From the IMG/VR virus record IMGVR_UViG_3300031758_000378, positions 1 to 30,424 of that record: a DNA stretch of 30,424 nucleotides; one strand, written 5' to 3'. The translations under genes were made by a program, and so were the position numbers. This DNA is from a virus. Each line of letters starts with the position of its first letter. Within the stretch, counting starts at the first letter, position 1. The notes beneath the pieces were generated by a model. That model had not been told where the DNA came from and ran no database searches. It saw nothing but the letters and a program-made list of their open reading frames with translations. Of the stretch, positions 1,580 through 27,583 are shown piece by piece.

Positions 1580-2845
1580 TTAGTACTGGCCTTTACCTGT
1601 TTCGGTTAGGCTTGTTTTAGTTAGACCAGATTGTCCTCTGAATCTAGCCTCTTCTTGTGCGGTTAAAGACTCTCTTGCTCTTTTAGCAGATGCTAGACCA
1701 AGGAATGCTTCTTGTTCTGCTTGAAGTCTTGTGTAATCTTCTCCACCTGAAATACTTGATAGGAACTCTGCACGAGGTGTAATGCTTGCCACCGTTTGAT
1801 AACCTTTACGTGCTTCCTCTTGAGTAATACCAAAGGAGGCTAGTGCTTCAGCACCTAATGCTCCAGTAGTTACATTCTCAAATTGTTTAGATTTTTCGGT
1901 TGTTGTTGCAAGACCAGTCTTTAGGCCTTGCAGGGAAGCGGCTCCACCAATTTCAGCAAGTTGTACCTTACGCTTAAGTGCTGGTAAACCTTCTTCTGGG
2001 TTCAATAATGCAGAAACAATATCGGTTTGGTTAAGTGAAGGATAATACTCTGCTAACGCTGCTTTTGTAAATGGGTCAGCATTCTTAACTCTATCTATCG
2101 CTAAACCAACTCTGTCTGCAACTTCTGCTGCAGATATATCATTTGCAATAAAGCCACTCATGGAACTTTTTGTTGCTAAAGTTCCTACACCGTAAGATTG
2201 CAATACTTGAGCGTATGTTCTTTCGGCTGCTAAATATTCGCCAGGGCTTAATATTGGCTTGCCTGCTGCTGCTCTTACTTTGTTGGCAGAAAATCTAGTC
2301 TGAAATGCAACCGCTAATGGGTCTTTACTATTAGGGTCCTGCATAATTAATTGAATAGTGTCGTTTGAATAACCCTTTTGTACGGCTTCCGTTACGGCGC
2401 CACTTAAATCACCCAAACCATATGAAGACAATAACGCACTAATTGCTGCTATTGCGTCAATTTTTTGAGTGCTAGTAGTAGGGGTAGTACTTAATACATC
2501 TTTTTTAGCATCCGCAGCAGAACCTTTATCATCTTTTGCTGCTGCAGGAGTAAGTGCTAAAGTCACTGGGTCAACATTAAACCCCGTTGCTGCTGCTTGA
2601 GTTTTCAATTTTTCTGTTTGAGCATCAGCGGCAGCAAAAACTTTTTCAAATTGTGCTTTAATTTTAGGGTCTTGAATTTGAGCCAAACTTGCTTTTGCTT
2701 CTTCGTAAGTGTTAACTCTAGTTGGAGGATTAACAATATTTTGTACAGCCTGAACTGGACTTGGTTGTGCGTTCAACGCTGCAAGTTGACGTTCTAAATC
2801 AGCAGCCAGTAAGTCTGCTGCTGTTGGTTTTCTTTTTGTCGCCAT
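1580..2845 (-). CDS. Virion structural protein, function unknown (421 aa)
   Basis: Starts with ATG at 2845 in a TAATG overlap with the preceding gene, so translation is coupled. The first ~130 residues are low-complexity (Ala, Lys, Gln, Pro, Thr). From about residue 135 a compact helical domain begins with SSYGLGDLSGAVTEAVQKG. It carries a pattern that I associate with structural proteins of actinophages: YLAAERTYAQVLQSYG, FIANDISAAEVADRV, NPEEGLPALKRKVQLAEIGG, and a GQY C-terminus. Position between the giant protein and the scaffold makes it a head or head-tail component. No enzymatic motif is seen and I cannot name its role in the particle. Confidence 0.6.
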   Translation of the reverse strand: MATKRKPTAADLLAADLERQLAALNAQPSPVQAVQNIVNPPTRVNTYEEAKASLAQIQDPKIKAQFEKVFAAADAQTEKLKTQAAATGFNVDPVTLALTPAAAKDDKGSAADAKKDVLSTTPTTSTQKIDAIAAISALLSSYGLGDLSGAVTEAVQKGYSNDTIQLIMQDPNSKDPLAVAFQTRFSANKVRAAAGKPILSPGEYLAAERTYAQVLQSYGVGTLATKSSMSGFIANDISAAEVADRVGLAIDRVKNADPFTKAALAEYYPSLNQTDIVSALLNPEEGLPALKRKVQLAEIGGAASLQGLKTGLATTTEKSKQFENVTTGALGAEALASFGITQEEARKGYQTVASITPRAEFLSSISGGEDYTRLQAEQEAFLGLASAKRARESLTAQEEARFRGQSGLTKTSLTETGKGQY

Positions 2846-3765
2846 TAACCAGCCAATCCAAACATTTTGGTCAAATCTCTCGCTAAGCCACCAAGAGAAT
2901 CTTGGGCATTTTTAGTAAATCTCCATTTAGGGTCTTTACGTAAAGAAATTTCGTAATCATACAGTCCAACTAAGCCCTTTGGGTCTTTAGCAACAGATTG
3001 TAATTCTTTAAGGTCAATAGCATCTGCATCTTCTTCAAGTATGTTTGCACGAGTTTGCAGATAGGGACTAAGTAATTGTTTTACTGTGTAGCCTTTATCA
3101 ATTTTGTCTGCCAATGCAGGAAAATATGTCTTAGCCTGTAAGTTAATTAAATTAAGATTACCTTTTAATCTGTCTGGATTAATTGCAGACTCAATGGTAA
3201 GTTTTGAGAGAGAATCGGCATTAAATGGGACCCCATTATCTGCATACGCATTTTTTAGCGTAGTATAAGTAAGTCCAAAATTACCACGTTGGAATATTGC
3301 GGCAGCCTTAGCATCTCCAGCACCAGCAGCATTTGTTATGCTTTTAGCATATACAGTAAGGTACTTATCAAGAATGTTTTTGCGTTCCTGAGGTGACACA
3401 CCTTGGTAAACAATATTCTCATCCTTGCCATATCGCTTTGTTGAGCGTGACATTTGAAGCGATTGAAGTTCTTTGGTAAATGCATTAATTAATTCTTTGG
3501 GCGCATTTACTCCAAATAGATTTGTAAAAGCAGTTGTGAACTCAGCGGTTGTTTCCCCAACAGTAGAAACACTTGCATAAGGTTTGCTTTCTGGAAAAAC
3601 CATTTGGTCGGTTTGACCAGCAGGCTTTTCTGCAGGTTTATCCTGTTCTACGGATTCTACCTTTGATGGGTCTTGCCCAGCAGGGGGCTTTTCGTTTGGC
3701 ATATTAGGGTCTGGATACCAAGCAACTAAATCGTCTTCATCTTTATCTAAATAATCACCAGGCAC
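2845..3765 (-). CDS. Virion structural protein, function unknown (306 aa)
   Basis: The start is a GTG at 3765 (reads MPGDYLDKDEDD) with GGAG seven bases upstream, overlapping the end region of the giant gene. Residues 1-60 are acidic and Pro-rich, probably disordered. From about residue 65 it is helical, with ...FTTAFTNLFGVNAPKELINAF. Order and coupling with the 421-aa gene suggest the two products act together, perhaps as a minor head or connector pair. I do not recognise a family; the assignment as structural rests on location only. Confidence 0.5.
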   Translation of the reverse strand: MPGDYLDKDEDDLVAWYPDPNMPNEKPPAGQDPSKVESVEQDKPAEKPAGQTDQMVFPESKPYASVSTVGETTAEFTTAFTNLFGVNAPKELINAFTKELQSLQMSRSTKRYGKDENIVYQGVSPQERKNILDKYLTVYAKSITNAAGAGDAKAAAIFQRGNFGLTYTTLKNAYADNGVPFNADSLSKLTIESAINPDRLKGNLNLINLQAKTYFPALADKIDKGYTVKQLLSPYLQTRANILEEDADAIDLKELQSVAKDPKGLVGLYDYEISLRKDPKWRFTKNAQDSLGGLARDLTKMFGLAG

Positions 3766-3767
3766 TG

Positions 3768-6700
3768 CTAATCTCCAATCAAAGGACTAAGAATCGAGTT
3801 AAAAAATATTGTTGCATTTTCATTATTTTGAGATAACTTGGCTATAAGTTCTTTAGCATCAGCCCTAGTGTCTCGTTTTAATGCATCTGCTTTATCTGAA
3901 GAACCTTGTATTCTACTAAGTGTAGATTTCATGTCATCATATGCTGAAATCATGGCGGCAAATGTTTCGCCAAGTTCCTTGTTAGGGGCCTTGTTGTCTC
4001 TAAGTAAAGCCTTCATATCGTCAATTACTTCGACTCTACGTGCATTACTTTCCGCTGTAGGACTTATCTGAGTCTCTAAAAGTGGATATGCAATCTTTAA
4101 GCCTTTTTGACGACTAGCCAATTGCTCTCTGTAATAACGTTTTTCATTAGGATTAGTTGCTGCTTGAATTTTAGGATTATACTCATCATTTAAAGCATAG
4201 TAGGCCATTCTAGCAGCAGTAGTAGCAGCCTCACGAATAAAGTTTTCTTTGCCATCTGCTACCGCTGGGTTTAATGGCTGGTTAGATATGTAACCTTTAC
4301 TCTTCAAATAAGAGTACGAACTTAAATCAGTAGTTCCGCTTACTGGAATAAAGAATGAACCAGCATCTCTATGGTCAATAAGGAACTTCTCGTTCTTGCG
4401 AACAAAGTTTTCCGCCTCAATAGTTTTACGGAATGATGCAAACCCTACTGTGTCTCTAGCAAAGTTAGTATAGGCTAACTTAGATGGGTAAAGTTTAGCA
4501 AAAGAAACCAAAGCCTTACTTAAGGCCTTTGGGTCTCCTTCGTATTTTTTCATCATCTTTTGAAATTCAGAATCCCAAGTGAATACACCAGCATCGATAA
4601 GTTCCTTTGGAACATCCTTAGTGCTAAATGCTTGGATAGAAGCAATAGTACCTTGACCCATTATTAATTTAACGGCATCAATATTTCTGGCCTGAATTGC
4701 TACCTTTTCAAAAAATCCTTGAAGTTCGCTTGCATTAGTTGGACCATTGCCAGTAGATACTAATAATTTGATTGATTTGACAGCAGATGAAAATCTTGAC
4801 TCACTATTTTCGGTTGAGCCAGCAAGAAAATTGTAAGCACGTCTAATATTTGCAGGCATTACTTTTTCCCAGGCTGGAGCATCTGGATTTAATGTACCAG
4901 TTATGCTTGACTCATAACCCTTTATATAGGGACCAATAAATGGTAGGTTAGTCATTGCGTCTACAGCAAGTGAAGCGAGTGGGTTTGAAAGAGTAGGATT
5001 CCAAAACTCTGGGTCTAAAGATGGAGTTAACATCTTTACATACCCACCAAAGTTAACTGGCATTGGAGTATGAGATGTTAGACCCATCATTGAAAGAGTT
5101 CTTGTAATTGCACCTGCAAACAAGTCATCGCCTGGATAGGTAAAGTACTTTTGACCCCTATCATCTTCGTGAATAAATCCAGAATCTTCAAAGGATTGGT
5201 TAAGAATTGCAAGACGTACTAATCCACGCTTTTCATACTTAACTAAACGTCCAGCACGGCGATAAAAATCTTCAGTTGCACGATAGTAACGGCCAAATGT
5301 ACGTAGACTAAAAGCCAAGTTTGTGCGAACATCACCATTATCAACAAAACTTAAAGTTCTATTACGAGCAAGATTCATCGCAGCCTCATGAGCAGAAGCA
5401 CGTGCTATAGAATCAGCACCCTCTTCGGATAGACCGTTTGCCATAAGACTTTTTTTAGTATTTTGTTCTGTCTTTACTAATTTCTTACGGAATGTTATGT
5501 AATTGGCAAGAGTAATTGGCTCTCTGTCAAGTAGCGCAATTTGCTTACCCATCCAGCCATAACCAGAATTGATTATTCTATACATAACCTCTGAAGGGCT
5601 TTTTCCGACCAGCGGAACAATTTCTTTACCCATAAGGGTTTCTGGGCGGGCATAAGGTTTATCTAGTTTTACTAAATCATCCATGCCAAAGTTATCCATA
5701 CCACCTTTATTACGGATGGCGGTTACTAAATCCATGTTAATGCGACCAGAGTAATCACGCAGTGCATATGATGCATCAGCGTATATGTGCGCTGCTAATC
5801 CCTCGGCACCTTGTTCAGAATATATTGCAAACTTTTTAGCAATATCGTTTCCTGGACCCTCAATGTAATCAACAAGTTTTTTTATTACTACATCTTGTTT
5901 TTTGCCAATATTCCATAAAACAATATTTCCAAATTGACCATTAGGTCGCCCGACGGTATTGTTTAATTCAAAAAGCCAGTGAAAAACTGCTTTATCATTC
6001 ATGCTCGAAAATTCACTAAATTCGCCTTTGAAGGTTAATCCCTTCAGCGCTTCTTGATTTTGAACATTAAATCTTACGGATGGACCAAATTCTTTTAGCG
6101 ATTTTGTCATTTCTTCTGCTTCAGAATACGGACGTTCTGCCTTAACGGTAGCGCCATTAAGTTCATCAAGAACTTTATGGCCTTCAAACTCTGCAAAATC
6201 TCCAGCCCAACCTGCTTCTTGCTTGGTTATGTTGTTAAATTTACCTTTAACCAAAGAAGTTGCTACGGCTTTATTGAGTGCTACTGAGTCATCGACCATT
6301 TTAATTTTTTCTTGCTGGTCGTAATGTTTTCCAGTAATTTTATAAACTGTATTGTAAATGAATCCTAGGTTTCTGTCTTCTTTTTCGTTTCCAAAAACAG
6401 TTGTTTTTACTCCAGCGGGTCTCGCTGTGCGAATAGCACGAGACATTGCACGTGCCTTTATGTAATTACCAAAACCTTCTGCTCCAGCAATTACGCCAAA
6501 CATACCAAGTTCTTCTACTGAAGAACGAAGTCCAAGGCGTGGATAAAGGTTTAAGAAAGACCAACCATCAGCAATTCCTCTGCTCCAAACGCTGTTAGTG
6601 GCACGGCCAAATACTGAAGTAAGAACTCCGCCACGTTGGGCTATTTCTCGCCATTCTTGAAAATCAGGTAATGAACGGTAGTCACTTAGTTGATACTGAC

Positions 6701-9059
6701 GAATAGCACGAGGCGTACCATCTAGAGTTTGACCAGCATTAAATCTATCAATAAACATTCCATCAACGTCGGCTTCATCAAGTTGTTTAACTTCAATTTC
6801 TTTGATTTTACCTTTTAATTCTTTCTTGCTTTTTAACTCTCTACCAAGTCTTGCTTTAACAATTTTAAGTTCATCATCAATTGCGTTGACACGGTCTAAG
6901 TCTCCTACCGCAAGCGCATCCGCCCTGTCGGCTTTAAGTGCTTTTGAACGTTGAGTATGTTCCGCAATTTTTGCATTTACAGAAGCAATAAGGCGAACAG
7001 CCTTGCCTTCTGCATTTGCAGTTGTCAATGCTTCCTGTACTTTTTTGCGAACACCTGCAGGTTGAGTAAGGGCAGAACCACCTTTTACTGTTCTAAGAAC
7101 ATCAGCAAGGTCGCCCACATCAACTGCACTCTGACTTGGAGAATACAATTCTTTTGACATCTCGTCAAGTTTAGAAAGAGCAAGTCTTCCTTCGGCAGAT
7201 AGATTTAGTCCCATACCATTGCCTAGTGTTTTTAGCAAACCTTTAAGCATAAGAAGGCGGTCACCTTCACTGGCATTTAACCAAACTGCACGGAATGTTC
7301 CAGAGGATGTTTTATCAAGAACTGTGCGTGCTAATTTAAAAATTTGATTTGCGCTAGAACCATCACTAATACTAATGATACGTTCATTTTTAGGAGCAAT
7401 TGAAAATGCACGAACCACTCTATCGATTCTAGCAAGTCTTGATTGGTCCCTTGCTGCTAATATACCTGGAACAGCAGTCTTTTCAAAACCAACTTTTTTG
7501 CTCCAAAATAATGGGTCAAGTGAAAATTGTTTGACAAACTCATCTTGGGTTTTTGCTACATCAAGTGCTGAGTAACGTTCTGTTCCTAAAGTTTTGGCAA
7601 TTAAATCTTTAAATTTATTAGTTGCTGTACGAGTAGCGGTTATGCGTGGTATAAGTGTATCTTTGCCCGCTATTCCAGCATTGCCAGATAAAATCTCTGT
7701 AAAACGTTTACCGTTGTCAAAGTACATTAATGCATCATCAGCGTTACGAACATCAGCCTTAGCCAAGTCATTAACTACATTGATATTAATTTCAGGAAAT
7801 CTGTCTTGTAAGCGGTTTAGGGCTTGAGCCTTAGTAGGTAAATCTCCATTACGGAAATTTTCAATTAATTTACCTGCTTCGTCCCAGTATGCACGGACTC
7901 TTGGTCTGGTAAAGGCTTTTTCAAGAGAAATACTACCTTCGCCAACTTTAAAAAATCCATATTTTGCAACTAATAAACCACGATTAATTTTACCACCAAT
8001 AATAAGTGGGTCGAGAGCAAAAGTTACTGTAAAATCTATTGGAGCAGATATGGCAGAAAATAACGCTCTTGCTTTTCCGTCACCCAAAACTGCTTGCTCG
8101 TATTCGTGTGGAAGCAATGAAATTACTGCACGAGCAGTATCACGTCCAGGACTGAATTTAGATTTTTCAAACCTTGCTACAGCGTTGCTAACTTCTTTAA
8201 GCGCAGCCTCGTCGCCACTTACATAGCGATTAACTAAATCTATAACACCAGGACTATCTTGATATCTTTCAAAATTTTCAATTAAGTCTTCTTTAGATGC
8301 AAGTAATCTACCTACATATGAGGCAGCGGGAGTTAGTTCATTATTAAATTGAGCAACTGCTTTTTCGTCAAATACTCTATTTGGAGCAGCAGCCTGTTCC
8401 CAGTATTTTTTCCATGTTGTAGAATCATCTGTTGGAAGAGCATCTTCCCCACCAGGAAGTAATTCTTTAAATCCTTCTATTGTATATCTAAGTTGCGCTT
8501 TAAGAGCATTCTCGCCCTCGGCTGCAGCCAAACTAGCAGCCATGTAAGGTTGCTTAACAAGTTTTTCTTGAGGACGTACTAAAAGTTCTAGTCCCTTTTC
8601 AACTTTAGTTGCAGTTTTTCCGCCAACTTCAGTTTCTGTAAACTCTTCAATTACACCTTTACCAGCACCAAGAATAGCATTACCAAGAGTTTGAAGGCCA
8701 ATATTTGGGCTAAATGATGAAAGGTTTTTAACAGCATCTATTGCTGTAGTTCCGCCACCATACCATACAGCACTTTTAACTGATGATAAAATATTACCAA
8801 AAAAACTTTTATCTTCTTTGGCATATTTAGGACTAAAGGTTGATGTTAATGCATCCCGAGTTACTTTATCAAAAGATTGAAATCTTTTATAAGCATCTGC
8901 TTGTGAAAGCGAAGTAAGTTCATTGTGCATATTACGCAACTGAACCATAGCAGCAAGTTGATTTTTTTCATTCTTTGGCAAATTTTGCTGTGCCATAGCA
9001 GTTGCAAGCCCAGGTGAAGACTCAGCAATTTTACTTAGTGGTTTGTCCTTCTCGGCCAT
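3768..9059 (-). CDS. Giant virion-associated protein (1763 aa), possible ejection/internal protein
   Basis: One uninterrupted frame of 5.3 kb, starting at ATG 9059 in a TAATG overlap with the Pro/Gly-rich gene. The protein is largely helical and charged. It contains a Gly/Ala-rich segment near residues 100-140 (GGGTTAIDAV, LGNAILGAGKG), a strongly charged coiled-coil-like region around 690-760 (KAEHTQRSK-type, many K/D/R/E), and a C-terminus rich in charged helices ending PLIGD. Proteins of this size encoded inside the head gene block are usually carried in the virion and injected with the DNA (for example internal proteins of T7- and N4-like phages). I could not find RNA-polymerase, lysozyme or MuF motifs, so a specific activity is not claimed. 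It sits between portal and capsid, not in the tail block where a tape measure would be expected. Confidence 0.55.
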   Translation of the reverse strand: MAEKDKPLSKIAESSPGLATAMAQQNLPKNEKNQLAAMVQLRNMHNELTSLSQADAYKRFQSFDKVTRDALTSTFSPKYAKEDKSFFGNILSSVKSAVWYGGGTTAIDAVKNLSSFSPNIGLQTLGNAILGAGKGVIEEFTETEVGGKTATKVEKGLELLVRPQEKLVKQPYMAASLAAAEGENALKAQLRYTIEGFKELLPGGEDALPTDDSTTWKKYWEQAAAPNRVFDEKAVAQFNNELTPAASYVGRLLASKEDLIENFERYQDSPGVIDLVNRYVSGDEAALKEVSNAVARFEKSKFSPGRDTARAVISLLPHEYEQAVLGDGKARALFSAISAPIDFTVTFALDPLIIGGKINRGLLVAKYGFFKVGEGSISLEKAFTRPRVRAYWDEAGKLIENFRNGDLPTKAQALNRLQDRFPEININVVNDLAKADVRNADDALMYFDNGKRFTEILSGNAGIAGKDTLIPRITATRTATNKFKDLIAKTLGTERYSALDVAKTQDEFVKQFSLDPLFWSKKVGFEKTAVPGILAARDQSRLARIDRVVRAFSIAPKNERIISISDGSSANQIFKLARTVLDKTSSGTFRAVWLNASEGDRLLMLKGLLKTLGNGMGLNLSAEGRLALSKLDEMSKELYSPSQSAVDVGDLADVLRTVKGGSALTQPAGVRKKVQEALTTANAEGKAVRLIASVNAKIAEHTQRSKALKADRADALAVGDLDRVNAIDDELKIVKARLGRELKSKKELKGKIKEIEVKQLDEADVDGMFIDRFNAGQTLDGTPRAIRQYQLSDYRSLPDFQEWREIAQRGGVLTSVFGRATNSVWSRGIADGWSFLNLYPRLGLRSSVEELGMFGVIAGAEGFGNYIKARAMSRAIRTARPAGVKTTVFGNEKEDRNLGFIYNTVYKITGKHYDQQEKIKMVDDSVALNKAVATSLVKGKFNNITKQEAGWAGDFAEFEGHKVLDELNGATVKAERPYSEAEEMTKSLKEFGPSVRFNVQNQEALKGLTFKGEFSEFSSMNDKAVFHWLFELNNTVGRPNGQFGNIVLWNIGKKQDVVIKKLVDYIEGPGNDIAKKFAIYSEQGAEGLAAHIYADASYALRDYSGRINMDLVTAIRNKGGMDNFGMDDLVKLDKPYARPETLMGKEIVPLVGKSPSEVMYRIINSGYGWMGKQIALLDREPITLANYITFRKKLVKTEQNTKKSLMANGLSEEGADSIARASAHEAAMNLARNRTLSFVDNGDVRTNLAFSLRTFGRYYRATEDFYRRAGRLVKYEKRGLVRLAILNQSFEDSGFIHEDDRGQKYFTYPGDDLFAGAITRTLSMMGLTSHTPMPVNFGGYVKMLTPSLDPEFWNPTLSNPLASLAVDAMTNLPFIGPYIKGYESSITGTLNPDAPAWEKVMPANIRRAYNFLAGSTENSESRFSSAVKSIKLLVSTGNGPTNASELQGFFEKVAIQARNIDAVKLIMGQGTIASIQAFSTKDVPKELIDAGVFTWDSEFQKMMKKYEGDPKALSKALVSFAKLYPSKLAYTNFARDTVGFASFRKTIEAENFVRKNEKFLIDHRDAGSFFIPVSGTTDLSSYSYLKSKGYISNQPLNPAVADGKENFIREAATTAARMAYYALNDEYNPKIQAATNPNEKRYYREQLASRQKGLKIAYPLLETQISPTAESNARRVEVIDDMKALLRDNKAPNKELGETFAAMISAYDDMKSTLSRIQGSSDKADALKRDTRADAKELIAKLSQNNENATIFFNSILSPLIGD

Positions 9060-9498: not shown

Positions 9499-10041
9499 CT
9501 ACTTAATTTTTCTTGGTTGCTCTTTTGATATATATGGGCCTGCTGTAAATGCAGTTAACTTAGATGCAATCTCCATTGCTTCATATGCATCTGCTCCTGC
9601 ATGTATCGCACCTAGTGCGTATGCGGCGCCTGAACCTGCAGCATATACTCCATCTGCAGATTTGCTTATAGACAACTCTTGGTCGATATCAAATATCTCG
9701 CCACCAATAGCCATTATAAACTGAAATCTAGTTTCTTTAGTATCTTCTTCAAAGTTATAACCATTCTCTGTTAAACATTTACGAAGAGATGGCATTGCTT
9801 TGGTAATCATAAAACGATATAAATCTTCTTTGTCTTGCTTAGTAGGAATAGGTGCTTCCCAAATATGTTGTGCTATATCGCAAGGTAATGTTTCGCCAGA
9901 GCCTGCAATTAAAAAAGAACCATTTTCTGAAATCTTTTTAACTTCAGGATGAGAATAAATTTTTCCATCTGCATCTGTAGTTCTACTATCAGCAACTAAG
10001 AAACAACGGTCTTTATGCTCTAAACCAATTATTGTTGTCAT
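9499..10041 (-). CDS. Proteasome-beta/HslV-like Ntn-hydrolase protease, probable capsid maturation protease (180 aa)
   Basis: After removal of Met1 the protein begins TTIIG, exposing Thr2 as the N-terminal nucleophile, as in 20S proteasome beta and HslV subunits. Numbered from that Thr, Asp17 falls in ADSRTT (compare DSRAT in proteasome beta). A VKKI block at residues 34-37 matches the VKK motif carrying catalytic Lys33, and Ser137 in GSGAAYALGA matches the conserved GSG near Ser129. The length suits an HslV-type subunit without a propeptide. Ribosome site: AGGGGACA before ATG 10041. It lies just after the portal gene, where tailed phages usually encode the prohead protease, and no S78, S14 or S49 protease is seen. 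It probably forms a ring and cleaves scaffold or head proteins (inferred). It could instead act on host proteins. Confidence 0.75.
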   Translation of the reverse strand: MTTIIGLEHKDRCFLVADSRTTDADGKIYSHPEVKKISENGSFLIAGSGETLPCDIAQHIWEAPIPTKQDKEDLYRFMITKAMPSLRKCLTENGYNFEEDTKETRFQFIMAIGGEIFDIDQELSISKSADGVYAAGSGAAYALGAIHAGADAYEAMEIASKLTAFTAGPYISKEQPRKIK

Positions 10042-14392: not shown

Positions 14393-14409
14393 TGTATTAA
14401 ATTAATACA
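14393..14409. repeat. 17-bp palindrome copy 1 (TGTATTAAATTAATACA)
   Basis: Perfect 8-bp arms around a central A. It lies 28 nt before the ATG of the 203-aa gene and upstream of its AAAAGG ribosome site. Confidence 0.9.
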
Positions 14410-14437
14410 GTAAATCCGAGAAAAGGAAAAACAAAAA

Positions 14438-15049
14438 ATGGCAACAACAACAAAGGCACCAAAGGCAACAAAAGCAAGCGCAACAATCTCAAGTGTAGTT
14501 GTAGATGCTTATTCTAAATTAGTTAATTTAGAGGGTGAGCAAGGTTTTATCTCACTATGCGTAAAACGCCTAAAGGCAAACACCTCAAGCGTTAGAGATA
14601 TCCAAGCCTCAATCGACAAGGCAGGGGGCACCGCACCTACCATCCGCAAAGCGCATGTCCAGTATTTCATAACCATGCAGGAGATATTGGATACTGTTGC
14701 AGGTGCAAAAACTCAGCCAATCTCAGAGTTGCTTAAAATGGCTCAGAGAGTACAAACCGCAAATGGCAAGGAGAAAGTTGCCGAGGTTTTAGCCGAGGTA
14801 AAAGACTATGCCGAGTTAGTGGCAGAAACCCCAACACTCGACCAAACCCGCACCCGCAAAAATGCCACCGCACCAAAGGCACCTGCAAGTGTCGAGACAA
14901 TTTTTACCAAGACACTTTCAGACTTGAAAGCCTTGAAAGGTGTCGGGTCTTGGGAATTGATAAAGACCTCAGACCTGCAAACCCTTGCAACACTTTCAGA
15001 GTTGCTGAGAGTTATTGCAAAGAACTCAGCACCAGCAAAAACCAAGTAA
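14438..15049 (+). CDS. Early protein of unknown function (203 aa), Ala/Lys/Thr-rich
   Basis: First and longest of the leading early genes, with its own upstream control sites and a strong terminator after it, so it is probably a separate, well expressed transcript. Residues 1-20 are a Lys/Thr/Ala-rich basic tail. The middle (20-115) is helical. A second Lys/Pro/Ala linker (about 135-150) leads to a helical C-terminal part (TLSDLKALKG...LATLSELLRV). The basic low-complexity tail and linkers would suit a nucleic-acid-binding or abundant early protein, but no family is recognised. Its base use is richer in C and A than its neighbours, with preferred codons that suggest high expression. Confidence 0.65.
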   Translation: MATTTKAPKATKASATISSVVVDAYSKLVNLEGEQGFISLCVKRLKANTSSVRDIQASIDKAGGTAPTIRKAHVQYFITMQEILDTVAGAKTQPISELLKMAQRVQTANGKEKVAEVLAEVKDYAELVAETPTLDQTRTRKNATAPKAPASVETIFTKTLSDLKALKGVGSWELIKTSDLQTLATLSELLRVIAKNSAPAKTK

Positions 15050-15064
15050 GAAAAACCAAGATAG

Positions 15065-15092
15065 CCCCCGAGAAATCGGGGGTTATTTTTTT
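15065..15092 (+). terminator. Strong intrinsic terminator after the 203-aa gene
   Basis: Stem CCCCCGA (15065-15071), GAAA tetraloop, TCGGGGG (15076-15082), then TTATTTTTTT. It ends 43 nt after the stop codon region and isolates the first early gene from the next operon. Confidence 0.92.
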
Positions 15093-15133
15093 GCCCAAAA
15101 CGACACGCCCGACCTCGGGGGGAAAAACAAAAA

Positions 15134-15201
15134 CCCAACACAAACTTTCAGGGAGTGCGGGTAGCAAGCGCAAAGACCAACCAAAAAAATCCCAACACAA
15201 A
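15134..15201 (+). repeat. Two CCCAACACAAA repeats
   Basis: CCCAACACAAACTTT at 15134-15148 also occurs exactly at 14187-14201. The shorter CCCAACACAAA recurs at 15191-15201. The copies flank the 203-aa gene and its terminator. Confidence 0.5.
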
Positions 15202-15213
15202 TTTTTGGCGGTT

Positions 15214-15262
15214 GGCGGTGCGTAAGAATTGATGGGCGGTGCGTGTAAATTGGGCGGTGCGT
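15214..15262 (+). repeat. Three GGCGGTGCGT direct repeats
   Basis: Identical 10-mers at 15214-15223, 15235-15244 and 15253-15262, spaced 21 and 18 bp apart, directly upstream of 17-bp palindrome copy 2. They are GC-rich islands in an AT-rich region. They look like protein-binding iterons or an upstream activator array. Confidence 0.55.
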
Positions 15263-15273
15263 GTGCGGATAGG

Positions 15274-15290
15274 TGTATTAAATTAATACA
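15274..15290. repeat. 17-bp palindrome copy 2
   Basis: Exact copy, 19 bp upstream of the -35 of the predicted promoter at 15310. It is the one copy placed before a promoter and not directly before a start codon. Confidence 0.9.
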
Positions 15291-15309
15291 GATTAAAACC
15301 CGAATATGC

Positions 15310-15338
15310 TTGACTTCTTTGGGGTGATAGAGTATTGT
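15310..15338 (+). promoter_or_regulatory. Predicted early promoter (TTGACT - 17 bp - TATTGT)
   Basis: The -35 TTGACT (15310-15315) and -10 TATTGT (15333-15338) are separated by 17 bp. Transcription would start near 15345, so palindrome copy 3 (15370-15386) would lie in the leader RNA and copy 2 upstream of the promoter. Confidence 0.6.
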
Positions 15339-15369
15339 TATCTCATGAGGTTAATTACCGATTACAGAG

Positions 15370-15386
15370 TGTATTAAATTAATACA
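15370..15386. repeat. 17-bp palindrome copy 3
   Basis: Exact copy, ending 22 nt before the ATG at 15409 and followed by the GAAAGG ribosome site. Confidence 0.9.
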
Positions 15387-15408
15387 CCTGCTGAACGAAA
15401 GGTTAGAC

Positions 15409-15558
15409 ATGAGTACAGTTGAGTTAATCAACTCACTTGATGAAGTTGTCGAACTAACTAAACAACTGCTTCATGATGAGATTGAACGCAACAAGCAAGA
15501 GCAAGCAAATCGTAATCGTCCAAACTACGATTATCTGAGAGCATTGGGGCTAATCTAA
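15409..15558 (+). CDS. Small early protein, unknown (49 aa)
   Basis: ATG 15409 follows GAAAGG at good spacing. The product (MSTVELINSLDEVVELTKQL...) is a mostly helical, charged peptide with one long amphipathic helix over about residues 5-32 and an end YDYLRALGLI. Its stop overlaps the next start (TAATG), so the two are translationally coupled. No family recognised. Confidence 0.6.
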   Translation: MSTVELINSLDEVVELTKQLLHDEIERNKQEQANRNRPNYDYLRALGLI

Positions 15559-15701
15559 TGACCCCTGATGATATTGCCCTTGACTTTATGACAGAGCAAG
15601 AGATAGCCGAGATTATGGCAACCGAGGACATATTCCAAGTGGATATGACTAATCTTGACGATTTACTTGAGGATGTTGCTTCGGACTCGGACTACGAATA
15701 G
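15558..15701 (+). CDS. Ultra-acidic small protein (47 aa), possible DNA mimic
   Basis: Starts in a TAATG overlap with the 49-aa gene. The sequence has 16 Asp/Glu in 47 residues and no Lys, Arg or His at all (MTPDDIALDFMTEQEIAEIM, ending SDSDYE). Such a charge profile in a tiny early gene resembles phage DNA-mimic inhibitors of restriction or other DNA-binding host proteins (Ocr/Arn-like in principle, no sequence relation claimed). It may instead be an inhibitor partner of the coupled upstream peptide. Confidence 0.6.
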   Translation: MTPDDIALDFMTEQEIAEIMATEDIFQVDMTNLDDLLEDVASDSDYE

Positions 15702-15711
15702 CAACTGGATA

Positions 15712-15758
15712 GCCCACGCTGGTGCGTGTGAGCATAGGTTCAATTCCTATGGTGGGCA
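15712..15758 (+). other. tRNA-like element: T-arm plus acceptor stem, D and anticodon arms missing or degenerate
   Basis: A canonical T-arm (ATAGG-TTCAATT-CCTAT, 15735-15750 region) is followed by GGTGGGC and discriminator A. GCCCAC at 15712-15717 pairs with GTGGGC to give six of seven acceptor pairs, but only ~16 nt lie between the 5' strand and the T-arm. The intervening CACGC-TGGT-GCGTG could form a small alternative hairpin. An ACTGGATAGC just upstream looks like a D-arm, but no full acceptor can be made from it. Options: a minimal tRNA mimic, a decayed tRNA, or the 3' half of a host tRNA in an attachment site. No integrase is visible nearby. Confidence 0.4.
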
Positions 15759-15762
15759 CGAG

Positions 15763-15779
15763 TGTATTAAATTAATACA
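15763..15779. repeat. 17-bp palindrome copy 4
   Basis: Exact copy, four bases after the tRNA-like element and 22 nt before the ATG at 15802. Confidence 0.9.
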
Positions 15780-15801
15780 CTTAATTAACGAAAGGCAGTA
15801 T

Positions 15802-15930
15802 ATGTACATAGAGGTAAGCGATACGATAGCAATTATTATCGCATTGACTATCAGCACCACGCTGGTAATCACTACTGCGATTAAAAATGCTAAACTCATG
15901 AAGGCTTTGCGTGAGTTAAATGTCAAATAG
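15802..15930 (+). CDS. Small single-span membrane protein (42 aa)
   Basis: The start at 15802 has GAAAGG eight bases upstream; longer upstream reading would run through the tRNA-like element. Residues about 6-27 (TIAIIIALTISTTLVITTAI) form one membrane segment, followed by a basic helix (KNAKLMKALREL). The last 11 bases overlap the next gene. Likely an inner-membrane early peptide; no family recognised. Confidence 0.6.
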   Translation: MYIEVSDTIAIIIALTISTTLVITTAIKNAKLMKALRELNVK

Positions 15931-16141
15931 AGAGGTTGATTTCGCCAACGATATCATCCTTGCATTAACTCGAGATGAGTTGGAGACGATACGGGAAGCG
16001 TTGCGACAATTCTCTATCAATAATAATCGACATGGGTTTGAGGCGAGAGCCAAGCATGCCGATACCTTGCGGGATAAGATTGTGAATATAATTCTTGATA
16101 GTGTCCAGCAAAGACTTGACAAGTCTAAGGAACTAGTGTAA
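15920..16141 (+). CDS. Small helical early protein (73 aa)
   Basis: Overlaps the membrane-peptide gene by 11 nt. The sequence is charged and entirely helical in appearance (LALTRDELETIREALRQF, then RAKHADTLRDKIVNIILDSV). No cysteine cluster, nuclease or clear helix-turn-helix motif is seen. Function unknown. Confidence 0.6.
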   Translation: MSNREVDFANDIILALTRDELETIREALRQFSINNNRHGFEARAKHADTLRDKIVNIILDSVQQRLDKSKELV

Positions 16142-16151
16142 ATTAGTTCTT
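16128..16151 (+). other. Hairpin at the end of the 73-aa gene
   Basis: GAACTA (16130-16135) pairs with TAGTTC (16144-16149), extendable to 8 bp with a wobble pair. No T-run follows, so it is at most an attenuator or RNA-stability element just before palindrome copy 5. Confidence 0.3.
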
Positions 16152-16169
16152 GTAATGAGATGAACCGCT

Positions 16170-16186
16170 TGTATTAAATTAATACA
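16170..16186. repeat. 17-bp palindrome copy 5
   Basis: Exact copy, ending 25 nt before the amidoligase ATG at 16212 and upstream of its GGAAAGG. Confidence 0.9.
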
Positions 16187-16211
16187 GCGAATAGCACGGA
16201 AAGGATAGGTT

Positions 16212-17435
16212 ATGGACACTATTGATGAGGTAGCAGTCAAGTGTTGTATCGCTTGCAATACCGAGTTAGATAGTTCTGATGCGCTTTATACCCGAGATAA
16301 TGACCCTGTCTGTCAAGATTGCATAAGGATATGCGAGTGTTGCGAGGATATTATCTCTATTGATGATGAGTATAATGATGTAGAGGGTAGACTATGGTGT
16401 CAAAGTTGTACCGAAAATGATGCTCATTGGTGCGACTTGGGCGACCACTACTTTACAGGTTATACTTATGGTACGGATGATTGTAGCGATGTCATGTGTG
16501 AGAGGTGTTATGAACGCAACACTTCTTATTGCGAGGATTGCGACGCTACTTATCTAAATGGTTGCGAATATAATCATGATGAGGAGGATGCTAGACTTAT
16601 ACATGATTATTCATATCGACCTGACCCTATATTTCATAGTTCCGAGGATGAGAATACAAGACTATACTTTGGTATAGAAGTTGAGACGGAAATCCGAGGT
16701 AGTGATTATAGTCAGCGTAGAGTATCTGCCGAGTATGCTGGTATCATATTGGAGAGTGAGAAGTTGGCATACTTAAAGCATGATGGCTCGCTTGAGTGTG
16801 GGTTTGAAATAGTGTCGCATCCTATGACCCATAACTATTTCATGAAGGAAGCCAGTACTTTATGGAATGTAATTACTAAACTCAAAACAGATTACAATAT
16901 GATAGCGTGGGGTACTAAAACTTGCGGACTTCATATTCATATATCTCGTGCTGGGTTTAGTGGTGGTTCTCATCAGCATAGGTTCTTGCAGTTAGTCTAT
17001 AATAACAAGGACTTTTATGAGGCTATGGCTGGTAGGTCATCTAGTCATTGGGCTAAGTTTGATGATGTTAATGACCCAGAAACTGGACGCAAGTCCTTTA
17101 AGCACAAGTTAGACCGAAATGGTTCAGATAGATATTCTGCTGTTAATACTAACAATAGAAATACGCTAGAAATGCGTATCTTTAGAGGTAGTCTTAACCA
17201 TAACTATCTCAAAGCATGTATTGACCTAGCGCATGCCAGCGTTGAGTTCACTCGGGTGATGAGTGTGCCCGAGGTTCGTAATCACAAGTTAGACTGTATT
17301 AATTTAATACAGTATGTCCGAGACAGGGCTGAGTTATATCCTGCTCTCAACTCACGATTAGACAGATTGTCTGATGTGATATCTAGGATAGAGAGGAAAG
17401 AGCATGTGTCTGCTAGTAGTAAGTTCTCCGAATAG
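16212..17435 (+). CDS. Amidoligase-family protein with N-terminal zinc-binding domain (407 aa)
   Basis: Residues 1-125 hold repeated CxxC pairs (near 12/15, 34/37, 63/66, 96/99 and 107/110), a LIM/treble-clef-like zinc region. From about 150 the protein matches the ATP-dependent amidoligase family (COOH-NH2 ligase fold related to glutamine synthetase): YFGIEVETE, HDGSLECGFEIVSHPM, CGLHIHIS, and NTLEMRIFRGSLN, which supply the expected Glu, His and Arg active-site positions. Such enzymes form amide or peptide bonds, using a carboxylate and ATP. The next gene, overlapping by 32 nt, is a glutamine amidotransferase, so ammonia may be the amine donor. The target is unknown; cell-wall peptide or a phage or host protein are candidates. 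A copy of the 17-bp palindrome lies inside the gene at 17295. Confidence 0.82.
   Translation: MDTIDEVAVKCCIACNTELDSSDALYTRDNDPVCQDCIRICECCEDIISIDDEYNDVEGRLWCQSCTENDAHWCDLGDHYFTGYTYGTDDCSDVMCERCYERNTSYCEDCDATYLNGCEYNHDEEDARLIHDYSYRPDPIFHSSEDENTRLYFGIEVETEIRGSDYSQRRVSAEYAGIILESEKLAYLKHDGSLECGFEIVSHPMTHNYFMKEASTLWNVITKLKTDYNMIAWGTKTCGLHIHISRAGFSGGSHQHRFLQLVYNNKDFYEAMAGRSSSHWAKFDDVNDPETGRKSFKHKLDRNGSDRYSAVNTNNRNTLEMRIFRGSLNHNYLKACIDLAHASVEFTRVMSVPEVRNHKLDCINLIQYVRDRAELYPALNSRLDRLSDVISRIERKEHVSASSKFSE
17295..17311. repeat. 17-bp palindrome copy 6, inside the amidoligase gene
   Basis: TGTATTAATTTAATACA, the same dyad read from the other strand (central T). It is kept intact while encoding Cys-Ile-Asn-Leu-Ile-Gln, about 110 nt before the amidotransferase start. 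Confidence 0.9.
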
Positions 17436-18237
17436 CACGCCACGCAAGAAGGACTTAGAGTGTGCTTCTTGCAACAATCCGCATGGCTTTGGCTATGCTG
17501 TAATTGCTGGTAATAAAATTATTACTGGCAAGGGTATGTCCTCTAAGAAAATTATCAAAGAGTTCTTAGAAGTGCGTAAGAAGTACCCAAAGAGTTATGC
17601 CATGTTTCATGCTAGGTTTGCTACGCATGGCGTAAAGAATGATGACAACTGCCATCCTTTCAAGGTTGGTGGTAGTGAACTGACATACCTTGCACACAAT
17701 GGTGTGCTAAGTGTGGACATACCTGCCAATGATATGCGTAGTGATACTCGTATCTTTGCCGAGGATATCTTGCCTGCTATGGGTGGTATTACTGCACTAG
17801 ATAATACTAACCTATATCGTATGATAGAAGGCTGGGCTAGTGGTAGCAAGATTGCAGTATTTACGCTAGACCCTAAGGCTGAGTATGACTGCTACATTAT
17901 CAACGAGGACTTAGGTCATTGGGATAATGCTGGCAACTGGTGGTCTAATGATGGCTACAAGCAAAATGCATGGACTAACTTATTCAAGAAGGGCGACGAA
18001 TACTATGACACACTAGACCCAATGGGTGATGATGGCTATGCTTGCATGATGTGTGGCACAGCAGTAAGTGATGATGATAATCCATATTATTGCTTCTCTT
18101 GTGGCTCATGCTTTGATTGCAGTATGATAGTCAATGACAGTTGCCTATGCTGGTCTCCTGAGATGGAGAAGTGGAGTTCCAGCCAACACAAACAATCGAC
18201 GGGAGTATACAATGGACAATATGACTTTGGCTTCTAA
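17404..18237 (+). CDS. Class II glutamine amidotransferase with C-terminal zinc-like cluster (277 aa)
   Basis: Met1 is followed by Cys2, the N-terminal nucleophile of Ntn-type glutaminases. Further class II marks: NPHGFGYAV (25-33), Arg71 and His75 in FHARFATHG, and Asn99-Gly100 in AHNG, at spacings like those in GlmS and PurF. It hydrolyses glutamine to glutamate and ammonia. Residues about 213-255 add a Cys-rich zinc-ribbon-like tail (CMMCG, CFSCGSCFDC), echoing the zinc region of the amidoligase. The start has GAGAGGAAAG and overlaps the amidoligase by 32 nt, so the pair probably forms a complex that uses the released ammonia or remodels glutamine-containing substrates. Confidence 0.85.
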   Translation: MCLLVVSSPNSTPRKKDLECASCNNPHGFGYAVIAGNKIITGKGMSSKKIIKEFLEVRKKYPKSYAMFHARFATHGVKNDDNCHPFKVGGSELTYLAHNGVLSVDIPANDMRSDTRIFAEDILPAMGGITALDNTNLYRMIEGWASGSKIAVFTLDPKAEYDCYIINEDLGHWDNAGNWWSNDGYKQNAWTNLFKKGDEYYDTLDPMGDDGYACMMCGTAVSDDDNPYYCFSCGSCFDCSMIVNDSCLCWSPEMEKWSSSQHKQSTGVYNGQYDFGF

Positions 18238-18349
18238 AGAGGAAGTCAGAAAAATAATTATAGAGTTAATCTCTATCGCCAAAACCATTGACGAGAGAGA
18301 TGACAATATAGTTGCACGAGCAAGACTACTATTGCAAGATTTGCAGTAG
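18212..18349 (+). CDS. Small helical early protein (45 aa)
   Basis: ATG 18212 has GGGAG six bases upstream and lies inside the end of the amidotransferase gene (26-nt overlap). MDNMTLASKEEVRKIIIEL... is one long charged helix to the end (ARARLLLQDLQ). Function unknown; the coupling suggests expression with the amidotransferase. Confidence 0.5.
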   Translation: MDNMTLASKEEVRKIIIELISIAKTIDERDDNIVARARLLLQDLQ

Positions 18350-18366
18350 TGTATTAAATTAATACA
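18350..18366. repeat. 17-bp palindrome copy 7
   Basis: Exact copy starting at the base after the preceding stop codon. Its last bases abut GGAGG, and it ends 10 nt before the ATG at 18377, so a bound protein or RNA fold here would cover the ribosome site. Confidence 0.9.
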
Positions 18367-18376
18367 GGAGGATAGC

Positions 18377-18604
18377 ATGAAGTTAAAAGTACATCATCCT
18401 AGTGGGGATGTAATAGCAGAGGTATATGATTATGCTGCTGGCGCATTACTGATGAGTCTGTACGGAGATGGCTCTTATATTACTTATAAAGGGGCATCAG
18501 TATGGGAGGAAGGCACAGATGGCGAGGGTGCTGAAAGTTATGACACTACAAGTATGGTAATAGACTCTAGATTAATTAGCATGGGGGTGCAAGTTGACGG
18601 CTGA
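18377..18604 (+). CDS. Small early protein, unknown (75 aa)
   Basis: Follows GGAGG directly after palindrome copy 7. The sequence looks beta-rich at first (MKLKVHHPSGDVIAEVYDY) and acidic in the middle. No known motif. It overlaps the next gene by 11 nt. Confidence 0.55.
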   Translation: MKLKVHHPSGDVIAEVYDYAAGALLMSLYGDGSYITYKGASVWEEGTDGEGAESYDTTSMVIDSRLISMGVQVDG

Positions 18605-18854
18605 AGTGACTCGTGAGGAAATATTAAACAAATACATGGTTCAATCAACTGGTATAGCCACAACTGGCTGGACTAAGTATATTAGATTACATACTGGCGC
18701 AATCAATGGCGAGTATACTGGTAGGCTACATTGGGATTCTAATGATGGCTATACAATGTTTTGGGACAATGATAGAGCACCTAAGGAAGCATATCGTCCT
18801 GAGTTTGAATATATATTAGATTCGATTACGGAGGGTAGTAATGCAAATAACTGA
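18594..18854 (+). CDS. Small early protein, unknown (86 aa)
   Basis: The likely start is TTG 18594 with GGGGGTG upstream. The product (MTAEVTREEILNKYMVQSTG...) has Trp/Tyr-rich beta-like segments (GRLHWDSNDGYTMFWD). It has no recognised family. It overlaps both neighbours by a few bases, as expected for a coupled early operon. Confidence 0.5.
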   Translation: MTAEVTREEILNKYMVQSTGIATTGWTKYIRLHTGAINGEYTGRLHWDSNDGYTMFWDNDRAPKEAYRPEFEYILDSITEGSNANN

Positions 18855-18987
18855 TGAAGTACTATGGGAAATAAAAATCAGGAAGTTAGATGTAGGCGAT
18901 ATGGGCGATGAAGAAATCAAAACCCTGCAATCAGAACTCACTAGTGCTGTACAAAGAGTACTTTGGGAGTATAGAATACATAACTAA
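18841..18987 (+). CDS. Small acidic/helical early protein (48 aa)
   Basis: ATG 18841 follows GGAGGG at six bases and overlaps the previous gene by 14 nt. MQITDEVLWEIKIRKLD... is a charged helical peptide ending VLWEYRIHN. It stops just before palindrome copy 8. Function unknown. Confidence 0.5.
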   Translation: MQITDEVLWEIKIRKLDVGDMGDEEIKTLQSELTSAVQRVLWEYRIHN

Positions 18988-18988
18988 C

Positions 18989-19005
18989 TGTATTAAATTA
19001 ATACA
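18989..19005. repeat. 17-bp palindrome copy 8
   Basis: Exact copy in the short gap after the 48-aa gene, 14 nt before the GTG at 19020 and next to its AAGGAGG. Confidence 0.9.
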
Positions 19006-19169: not shown

Positions 19170-19287
19170 GCCAATGTATCTAATGGGTGATGATTATGCA
19201 CTTGGTATTAATCAAACCTGTGATGACTGTGATGAAACAAAATGTATATGCTTCGAATCGGATAGGATGTGGGAGGATGATGTATGA
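19162..19287 (+). CDS. Small Cys-motif protein coupled to the WhiB gene (41 aa)
   Basis: ATG 19162 follows AAAGGAG. The short acidic product has CDDC and then C-x-C (CDDCDETKCIC), enough for one zinc or iron site. Its stop overlaps the WhiB start as ATGA. It may be a metal-binding partner or simply a small coupled peptide; unknown. Confidence 0.55.
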   Translation: MSEPMYLMGDDYALGINQTCDDCDETKCICFESDRMWEDDV

Positions 19288-19634
19288 TAGGCAACTGTAC
19301 TAATGATGCTAATCCTGATTGGTGGTTCCCTGAACTACCTCGTAATAGGATTAGTAGAGATAGGCTAGAAGTAATTACTAAACAGACCAAGTATGCGCTA
19401 CAATTATGCTCCTCATGCCCAATTAAAAATGAGTGTTTGGCTGAGGGCATGAAGACTGAAGAGATGCGTGGGACTGTAATTGGTTGGGGTAATCTACCAT
19501 TTGGAATATGGGGTGGTACTATGCCTTATGAAAGACTAGAGAAGGTTGGTATTACCCCTCGCACCAGTAGCGGTGAGGCGGTAAAGAAAGCCTTTGCACT
19601 CAAGAACCAAATGGGACAACTGTTAGGAAGGTAG
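19284..19634 (+). CDS. WhiB-family [4Fe-4S] transcription factor (116 aa)
   Basis: The four cluster cysteines are C5, C42, C45 and C51 (CSSCPIKNEC), and the G-I-W-G-G turn is at 74-78. WWFPE near the N-terminus and the basic C-terminus also suit the family. WhiB-like proteins bind the primary sigma factor and DNA and are confined to actinobacteria and their phages. Phage copies such as TM4 gp49 affect host septation and superinfection. This protein probably redirects host transcription early in infection and is the strongest evidence for an actinobacterial host. Translation is coupled by an ATGA overlap. Confidence 0.93.
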   Translation: MIGNCTNDANPDWWFPELPRNRISRDRLEVITKQTKYALQLCSSCPIKNECLAEGMKTEEMRGTVIGWGNLPFGIWGGTMPYERLEKVGITPRTSSGEAVKKAFALKNQMGQLLGR

Positions 19635-19637
19635 AGC

Positions 19638-20021
19638 ATGAGGAAAAGACTGATACTGTTATTAGTTATATTAATAACTTTATTACACCTTGTACCAACT
19701 AGCAATATAGAGAAAGAAACTAAACGTGAGTGGACTGTCGAGGATAGTAAAAACTATGCTAAGGATAGTTTAGTTGCGTGGCAACAACATCAATGGGAAT
19801 GTTTGGATAAATTGTGGACCAAGGAATCTAACTGGAGACCTGAAGCCTACAATAAGGTTAAGGTGATGGGTAAAAATGCTGGTGGTATTCCGCAGATATT
19901 AGGACTTTCACCCGACACAAACCCACCATCGCAAATTGACCGAGGACTCGCTTATATCACCCATCGATACGGGACTCCATGCATGGCGTGGAAATTCTGG
20001 CAAAAGAATAGGTGGTACTAA
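19638..20021 (+). CDS. Secreted or membrane-anchored lytic-transglycosylase-like protein (127 aa)
   Basis: Residues 1-20 (MRKRLILLLVILITLLHLVP) form a signal peptide or membrane anchor. The remainder resembles actinobacterial SLT-type domains: WECLDKLWTKESNWRPEAYN with likely catalytic Glu63, then AGGIPQI, a QIDRGLAYI helix and RYGTPCMAWKFW ending WY. The two cysteines (55 and about 115) may form a disulfide outside the cell. It would cleave or remodel peptidoglycan from the periplasmic side. It lies among early genes, far from the lysis cassette, so superinfection control, wall weakening or spread of phage products are possible roles. Confidence 0.75.
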   Translation: MRKRLILLLVILITLLHLVPTSNIEKETKREWTVEDSKNYAKDSLVAWQQHQWECLDKLWTKESNWRPEAYNKVKVMGKNAGGIPQILGLSPDTNPPSQIDRGLAYITHRYGTPCMAWKFWQKNRWY

Positions 20022-27470: not shown

Positions 27471-27583
27471 ATTGACATCCATCCTTCGTACTCTGCATTT
27501 GGGTTATCCTTAAGCCATTGTTCTCTTAATTGATTCTGGTACTCCCAGTCAATATCATTGCTAACTATTTTTTCCTTATCCAT
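27467..27583 (-). CDS. Small acidic protein upstream of the endolysin (38 aa)
   Basis: ATG 27583 follows AAGGGATGG, and its TGA overlaps the endolysin start (ATGA). MDKEKIVSNDIDWEYQNQL... is helical and Trp-rich (REQWLKDNPNAEYEGW). It may be a coupled peptide of the lysis operon; function unknown. Confidence 0.6.
   Translation of the reverse strand: MDKEKIVSNDIDWEYQNQLREQWLKDNPNAEYEGWMSI

Follow-up and report, generated by a model that had tools for sequence, protein, structure and literature searches.

Phage genes in which an amidoligase is paired with a class II glutaminase have been reported previously. The pair was noted in OM43 phages, with reference to phiEco32 (Iyer 2009) and Marvin (Mageeney 2012), in PMC10580990, and PMC5498523, PMC6256558 and PMC3890496 describe it in LUZ24-like phages and in the RIO-1-type cassette, a set of seven genes that is proposed to change the host peptidoglycan against superinfection. 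According to the latter papers (PMC3890496, PMC5498523, PMC6256558), the cassette of phiEco32, LUZ24, RIO-1 and PA11 combines Amidoligase_2 with a class II glutaminase, as does the locus described here, and comprises about seven genes, including an ATP-grasp gene, a second amidoligase and a gamma-glutamyl cyclotransferase. In the part of the literature covered by our search, the functions given to phage amidoligase-glutaminase pairs since 2009 are all predictions. The original prediction for the present locus, which presented the pair as the best candidate for an undescribed biochemical system, is not supported on this point, because the pair is already in the phage literature with the same cell-wall and superinfection idea.

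The stretch of DNA analysed here, referred to as the window, is the 30,424-bp virus record IMGVR_UViG_3300031758_000378 (positions 1 to 30,424), and the features of the locus are listed in Table 1. The genes gp105-gp106 of Marvin (19 similar records) have the same gene order as the window pair and are likewise adjacent and near one genome end, and Marvin shares with the window viruses and Nocardia both the Cys-rich tail of the glutaminase and a well-supported clade (support 97). However, the identity is about 31-33%, a 79-bp gap takes the place of the overlap, and the N-terminal Cys region of the Marvin amidoligase is shorter. The Methylophilales phages MEP401/402 also carry an adjacent pair (gp05-gp06, with a 10-bp overlap), although they have neither such an N-terminal zinc module nor the Cys tail and show 24% and 29% identity. 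No gamma-glutamyl cyclotransferase (GGACT/AIG2) was detected in the window or in twelve relatives, and the search gave no match in the window record or 15 others, which may be incomplete; the control genomes did match. An R2K_2 ATP-grasp gave no match above the cut-off in the window and twelve relatives, and an additional COOH-NH2 ligase gave no match; in both searches the control genomes were equally silent. Because the cyclotransferase is missing, the window lineage appears to have a variant that is reduced to two genes and carries zinc-like modules.

Two bacterial systems also require comparison. AsnB/LtsA amidates mDAP by means of a class II glutaminase fused to an asparagine-synthetase domain and contains no Amidoligase_2 enzyme, and, unlike AsnB/LtsA, neither window protein has a Pfam match to an asparagine-synthetase domain. 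MurT-GatD, which amidates the D-Glu of peptidoglycan, likewise performs a glutamine-dependent, two-component amidation of an acidic group (PMC3267633), but its ligase has the Mur-ligase fold, its glutaminase is of class I, and it has no Amidoligase_2 enzyme. The Pfam and PHROG matches of the window proteins are to Amidoligase_2 and class II glutaminase only and are not of the MurT-GatD type.

Table 1. Positions of the features of the amidoligase-glutaminase locus in the window.
Feature	Position	Strand	Basis or remark
Fast-evolving gene, 203 aa, cluster v8, first of the plus-strand block	14438-15049	+	preceded by operator
42-aa single-helix membrane peptide, MYIEVSDTIAIIIALTISTTLVITTAIKNAKLMKALRELNVK	15802..15930	+	possible partner of the pair
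Predicted helical protein of 73 aa (cluster v9), immediately before the pair	15920..16141	+	gene order
17-bp operator-like palindrome, TGTATTAAATTAATACA	16170..16186	.	25 bp before amidoligase start
Amidoligase (Amidoligase_2 / carboxylate-amine ligase), 407 aa	16212..17435	+	Pfam, PHROG, residues
N-terminal Cys-rich module of amidoligase, aa 12-118	16245..16565	+	predicted multi-zinc treble-clef/LIM-like domain
Same palindrome inside amidoligase CDS	17295..17311	.	92 bp before glutaminase start
Reading-frame overlap, 32 bp	17404..17435	+	-32 bp also commonest viral spacing
Class II (Ntn) glutamine amidotransferase subunit, 277 aa	17404..18237	+	PHROG, residues, profile
C-terminal Cys-rich tail of glutaminase, aa 214-249, CxxC-x12-CxxCxxCxxC-x7-CxC	18043..18150	+	kept in viral relatives, Marvin
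Transglycosylase	19638-20021		phrog_12661, E 1.5e-18; N-terminal membrane/signal segment

The pair belongs to a block of plus-strand genes at 14.4-20.7 kb of the window. To the left of this block lie structural genes (portal, terminase) and to its right genes for replication and regulation (sigma factor, DnaB-like helicase, exonuclease), all on the minus strand, and from this gene layout we infer early expression of the pair. An HslV-family peptidase match at 9499-10041, probably a prohead protease, adjoins the portal gene. A WhiB-like regulator (19284-19634) is followed by the short transglycosylase, and both are kept across the lineage. The placement of a transglycosylase in the same gene series as the pair was correctly anticipated, whereas a specific tie between them did not emerge; a functional tie was rejected because nothing was found beyond lineage-wide synteny. 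The WhiB gene, the GC content (41%) and the clade shared with Nocardia and Marvin suggest that the host is a low-GC actinobacterium. Among the genome contigs of bacteria, the best match reached 34%, and no close relative was found.

The amidoligase scores 33.8 bits against Pfam Amidoligase_2 (PF12224; cut-off 22, E 4e-8) and matches phrog_16683 (E 1e-32). In an alignment of 71 viral, Nocardia and clostridial homologues, down to 23% identity, the motifs GxExE, DGS..G.E, GLHxH and ExRxF are kept, and the residues expected in the active site, G154, E156, E158, D191, S193, G197, E199, H241, H243, R246, R275, N312, T318, E320 and R322 are invariant or nearly so. The protein is thus predicted to be an intact Amidoligase_2 enzyme. 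CxxC pairs follow one another along its N-terminus (C12, C15, C34, C37, C41, C44, C63, C66, C74, C96, C99, C107, C110 and C118), and C74, C96, C99, C107, C110 and C118 are invariant in the 71 sequences. A profile of this module yields weak matches to solved structures of LIM domains (2cup, E 0.0017) and RING fingers, and Pfam LIM falls just under its cut-off on a clostridial homologue (E 6e-4). The label "zinc-like" appears to be fair for these Cys modules.

Almost the whole length of the glutaminase is covered by its match to phrog_25883 (E 8e-36), and its family profile matches the solved glutaminase domains of PurF and GlmS. Against Pfam GATase_6, it scores 21.6 bits (E 2e-4), under the cut-off of 27, which a clostridial homologue passes with 46.7 bits; the low score weakens the Pfam label and not the residue-level evidence. 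The protein begins with MC, and Cys2, which is at the N-terminal nucleophile position, is invariant in 53 homologues, as are H69, R71, T74, G76, H84, N99 and G100, whereas the invariance of D114 refers to a smaller set of 24 sequences. We take Arg71, Asn99-Gly100 and Asp114 to be the equivalents of R73, N98-G99 and D123 of GlmS, the glutamine-binding and oxyanion residues. Judged by these residues, the protein should be an intact class II enzyme with residue 2 as its catalytic Cys. In its tail, C214, C217, C230, C233, C236, C239, C247 and C249 are at least 90% conserved in 24 sequences, and a similar spacing occurs in Nocardia. The alignment comparison revealed no such tail in the clostridial, MEP401 and MW202733 glutaminases, and this feature is limited to the actinobacterial branch. 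The original prediction of an amidoligase of 407 aa with N-terminal CxxC modules (confirmed by its reading frame, Pfam match and conserved Cys) that overlaps a class II glutaminase with a Cys-rich C-terminal tail is borne out, and the catalytic residues are intact across the homologues compared rather than disrupted in most of them.

For the linkage of the two genes, viral contigs were scanned with the amidoligase and with the glutaminase as seeds, the best 80 matches being taken in each scan, and both directions recovered the pair. At least 162 loci were obtained, many of them on shared contigs, and 90 are distinct by glutaminase sequence. Among these viral matches listed, the amidoligase precedes the glutaminase on the same strand in 158/158 assessable loci, the remaining 4 of the 162 being broken by contig ends, and the spacing ranges from -38 to +37 bp, with -32 bp in 71/158. 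The 32-bp overlap is likely to provide translational coupling. Among the bacterial matches listed, 75/79 loci have the adjacent pair in the same order; the four others are L202, whose contig breaks off shortly past the amidoligase gene, L236, a bacterial contig without the glutaminase and a real exception, and two short Nocardia contigs. Adjacent pairs are also present in the phage records of Marvin and its relatives, MEP401/402, MW202733 and MT839723, and in Rhizobium phage N3_13 the pair is inside a larger cassette that also includes an ATP-grasp gene. Linkage elsewhere is therefore the rule, and the co-occurrence is far stronger than could have been known when a search of other phages and their gene neighbours was suggested. 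In Clostridioides phage AR1086-1 and Microcoleus phage My-WqHQDG, no glutaminase gene lies within about 5 kb of the amidoligase relative, and these two phages, together with L236, indicate that members of the wider family can occur without a glutaminase partner. In AR1086-1 (5922-6932 of its record), an apparent nucleotidyltransferase gene follows the amidoligase in the place of the glutaminase. In Bifidobacterium phage BP677P1 (about 1850-3521), the gene for an amidoligase whose N-terminus is Cys-rich is split over two frames immediately ahead of a 166-aa glutaminase, which may reflect a frameshift, a sequencing error or a programmed shift.

Both genes are under purifying selection, with median dN/dS values of 0.19 for the amidoligase and 0.18 for the glutaminase among 17 close relatives. 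The distance matrices of the two proteins are correlated (r=0.92 for 54 loci and 0.75 within the viral lineage, with 0/2000 permutations each), which shows co-inheritance but would not suffice to establish a physical complex. Quick trees of both proteins group the window viruses with Nocardia and Marvin, as mentioned above (support 97 for each protein), and set the Clostridia apart; the placement of MEP401 and MW202733 is unsure because of their long branches.

We believe that the two proteins are probably the subunits of one glutamine-dependent amide synthetase. The intact catalytic residues, the near-obligate pairing in fixed order, the purifying selection and the co-inheritance support this reading, as do the distribution on mobile elements and the small membrane peptides adjoining the pair that are described below. 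In such an enzyme, the class II glutaminase, with its nucleophile Cys2 exposed by removal of Met, would hydrolyse glutamine and hand the ammonia to the amidoligase, which would activate a carboxylate with ATP and convert it to an amide, and the zinc-finger-like modules would recruit the substrate, join the subunits, or both. The transfer of ammonia, the physical complex and the binding of zinc are presumed.

In a second reading, one enzyme makes what the other cleaves. The amidoligase may couple a glutamyl group or another amino acid to an amine, from which the class II enzyme would later remove it as a gamma-glutamyl hydrolase, so that the outcome would be a protecting group or a reversible tag and not amidation. 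Ergothioneine synthesis in actinobacteria offers a precedent, in which EgtA is a glutamate-cysteine ligase-type enzyme and EgtC is a hydrolase with the class II amidotransferase fold, and the kept R71 and D114 suit gamma-glutamyl groups as well as free glutamine. However, the phage pair is not accompanied by a conserved third biosynthetic enzyme, and the strict pairing with overlap or close spacing is better suited to a stoichiometric complex. We regard this reading as unlikely.

The surroundings of the pair in bacteria bear on its function. In the gut bacteria Ruminococcus, Butyricicoccus and kin (Ruminococcaceae), a zinc-module amidoligase is followed by a glutaminase on the same strand; compared with the window, these clostridial pairs have DUF960 upstream, often a gap peptide, no Cys tail, and about 30% amidoligase identity. 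Among the matches listed, the DUF960 gene is near or directly upstream of the pair at 51 loci, with a divergent relaxase gene (both are Pfam matches), and a serine resolvase-like gene downstream and a VirB4-like ATPase gene nearby were read from the sequence. Because of the relaxase, resolvase-like and VirB4-like neighbours, the clostridial pairs look like parts of conjugative or mobilisable elements. Several copies of the pair per genome, on separate contigs, are found in Ruminococcus flavefaciens, Butyricicoccus and kin (L174-L245), and three Nocardia loci (L170, L171 and L178) have two to three tandem amidoligase genes in one chromosomal region, most of them with a glutaminase.

Small hydrophobic peptides accompany the pair in both settings. 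Among the clostridial matches listed, 41 loci have at least 100 bp between the two genes, and the gap contains an open reading frame of 47-75 aa in 36/41 (4.3 expected from shuffled gaps) and a hydrophobic helix in 33 (0.17 expected). These gap peptides are of dissimilar families and resemble membrane anchors, and several have acidic tails. Within 1.3 kb upstream of the viral pair, a small membrane reading frame occurs in 44/52 loci, compared with 47/501 same-strand control windows, and downstream it occurs in 0/52; the viral loci share synteny, so these occurrences are not independent and the association is phylogenetically confounded. Dissimilar peptides (clusters v18, v21 and others) occupy this upstream slot. 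The adjacency of membrane peptides is suggestive of a membrane-proximal role of the pair. The 73-aa protein is at position -1 in 64/90 distinct viral loci among the matches listed, with dN/dS of 0.14 and no convincing Pfam or PHROG family match; as a candidate substrate, it was rejected because some members of the lineage lack it or differ in it.

These neighbours raise the question of protein or peptide tagging, in which the amidoligase would amidate or ligate a ribosomal peptide or a host protein brought by the zinc finger; on the clostridial elements, the gap peptide or the DUF960 protein would be the substrate or an adaptor. LIM-like modules bind proteins in eukaryotes, the gap reading frames are frequent and several end in acidic tails, and the C-terminus of the recurrent DUF960 protein (...TMLLAEEY) is strongly conserved. 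Nevertheless, the phage versions have no homologous peptide or DUF960 gene, the gap peptides are dissimilar and anchor-like, and DUF960 is a common gene of mobile elements that also occurs without the pair. Tagging of this kind seems improbable to us, to about the same degree as the glutamyl transfer and hydrolysis discussed above.

Class II glutaminases and amidoligases occur generally in pathways for small molecules, secondary metabolites and DNA-base chemistry. A role of this type in the service of infection was suggested for Marvin, as quoted in PMC10580990. However, no other biosynthetic genes are conserved beside the pair, there is no gamma-glutamyl cyclotransferase, and the DNA-methyltransferase-like gene at 27565 is far from the pair and on the opposite strand; we consider such a role very improbable. 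That the two genes are decayed or are passengers without function is a reading of almost negligible probability, which was rejected in view of dN/dS <0.2, the invariant catalytic residues and the fixed linkage.

For the amide synthetase, no specific substrate signal was found, PADLOC returned no convincing defence-system match, and NCBIfam returned weak GlmS or YbdK-like matches only. We tentatively propose, with limited confidence, that its target is an acidic group located on or close to the membrane, either on the stem peptide of a peptidoglycan precursor or on an envelope protein. Since neither protein has an obvious membrane segment, a wall target would be reached at the precursor level. 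Peptidoglycan precursors are a published guess, for which MurT/GatD (PMC3267633) and AsnB/LtsA may serve as precedents of stem-peptide amidation, although our results do not favour these precursors over other targets. Both the substrate and the benefit are guesses; an altered cell envelope might profit the mobile element, for example by the exclusion of competing phages. A bolder version, to which we assign only a small chance, is a zinc-finger-guided, membrane-docked split amide synthetase common to phages and conjugative elements, with the small peptide as anchor or substrate and an envelope or host protein as the target of amidation.

The pair was also said to be preceded by a 17-bp operator, and this palindrome is real. 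The sequence TGTATTAAWTTAATACA has 8 perfect sites in the 14.4-19.0 kb region (8 sites give 16 both-strand matches, compared with 0.04 expected), mostly just upstream of gene starts, and the sites begin at 14393, 15274, 15370, 15763, 16170, 17295, 18350 and 18989 (span 14393-19005). The intragenic site is also found in L005-L010, L036, L037 and L042. Sister phages (L005-L166) have other repeated palindromes, of about a dozen or more types, including TGCCGTAT-N-ATACGGCA, TGTATGAT-N-ATCATACA and TCCGTTTAAACGGA, whose positions are often kept, and this multi-type arrangement resembles diversified immunity or stoperator systems. The product of the first gene of the plus-strand block has no convincing family match. 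Its coverage-weighted identity is 33.8% between phages with the same operator and 10.3% between phages with different operators at matched amidoligase divergence (0/2000 label shuffles; next best gene tested, 23/2000). Because its similarity tracks the operator type, it is the strongest candidate for a cognate regulator that binds the operator, and a DNA-binding function of this kind is likely as a prediction.

The zinc-finger (LIM-like) subfamily that is common to actinophages, Nocardia and Ruminococcaceae mobile elements and has no cyclotransferase is apparently less known than the cassettes described above; in the part of the literature that we searched, neither the occurrence of this subfamily on mobile elements of clostridia nor the gap peptide was found described. 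That phages, Nocardia islands and clostridial elements all carry the subfamily as a near-obligate unit of two genes indicates that it serves mobile elements in general, and the small membrane peptide represents the first concrete handle on the function of the pair. Furthermore, cultured actinophages of the Marvin group, which infect M. smegmatis mc2 155, carry relatives of the pair, so that the question can be tested in the laboratory. If the membrane-docked version is true, the pair would perform a post-translational modification not yet described in the biology of phages or conjugative elements.
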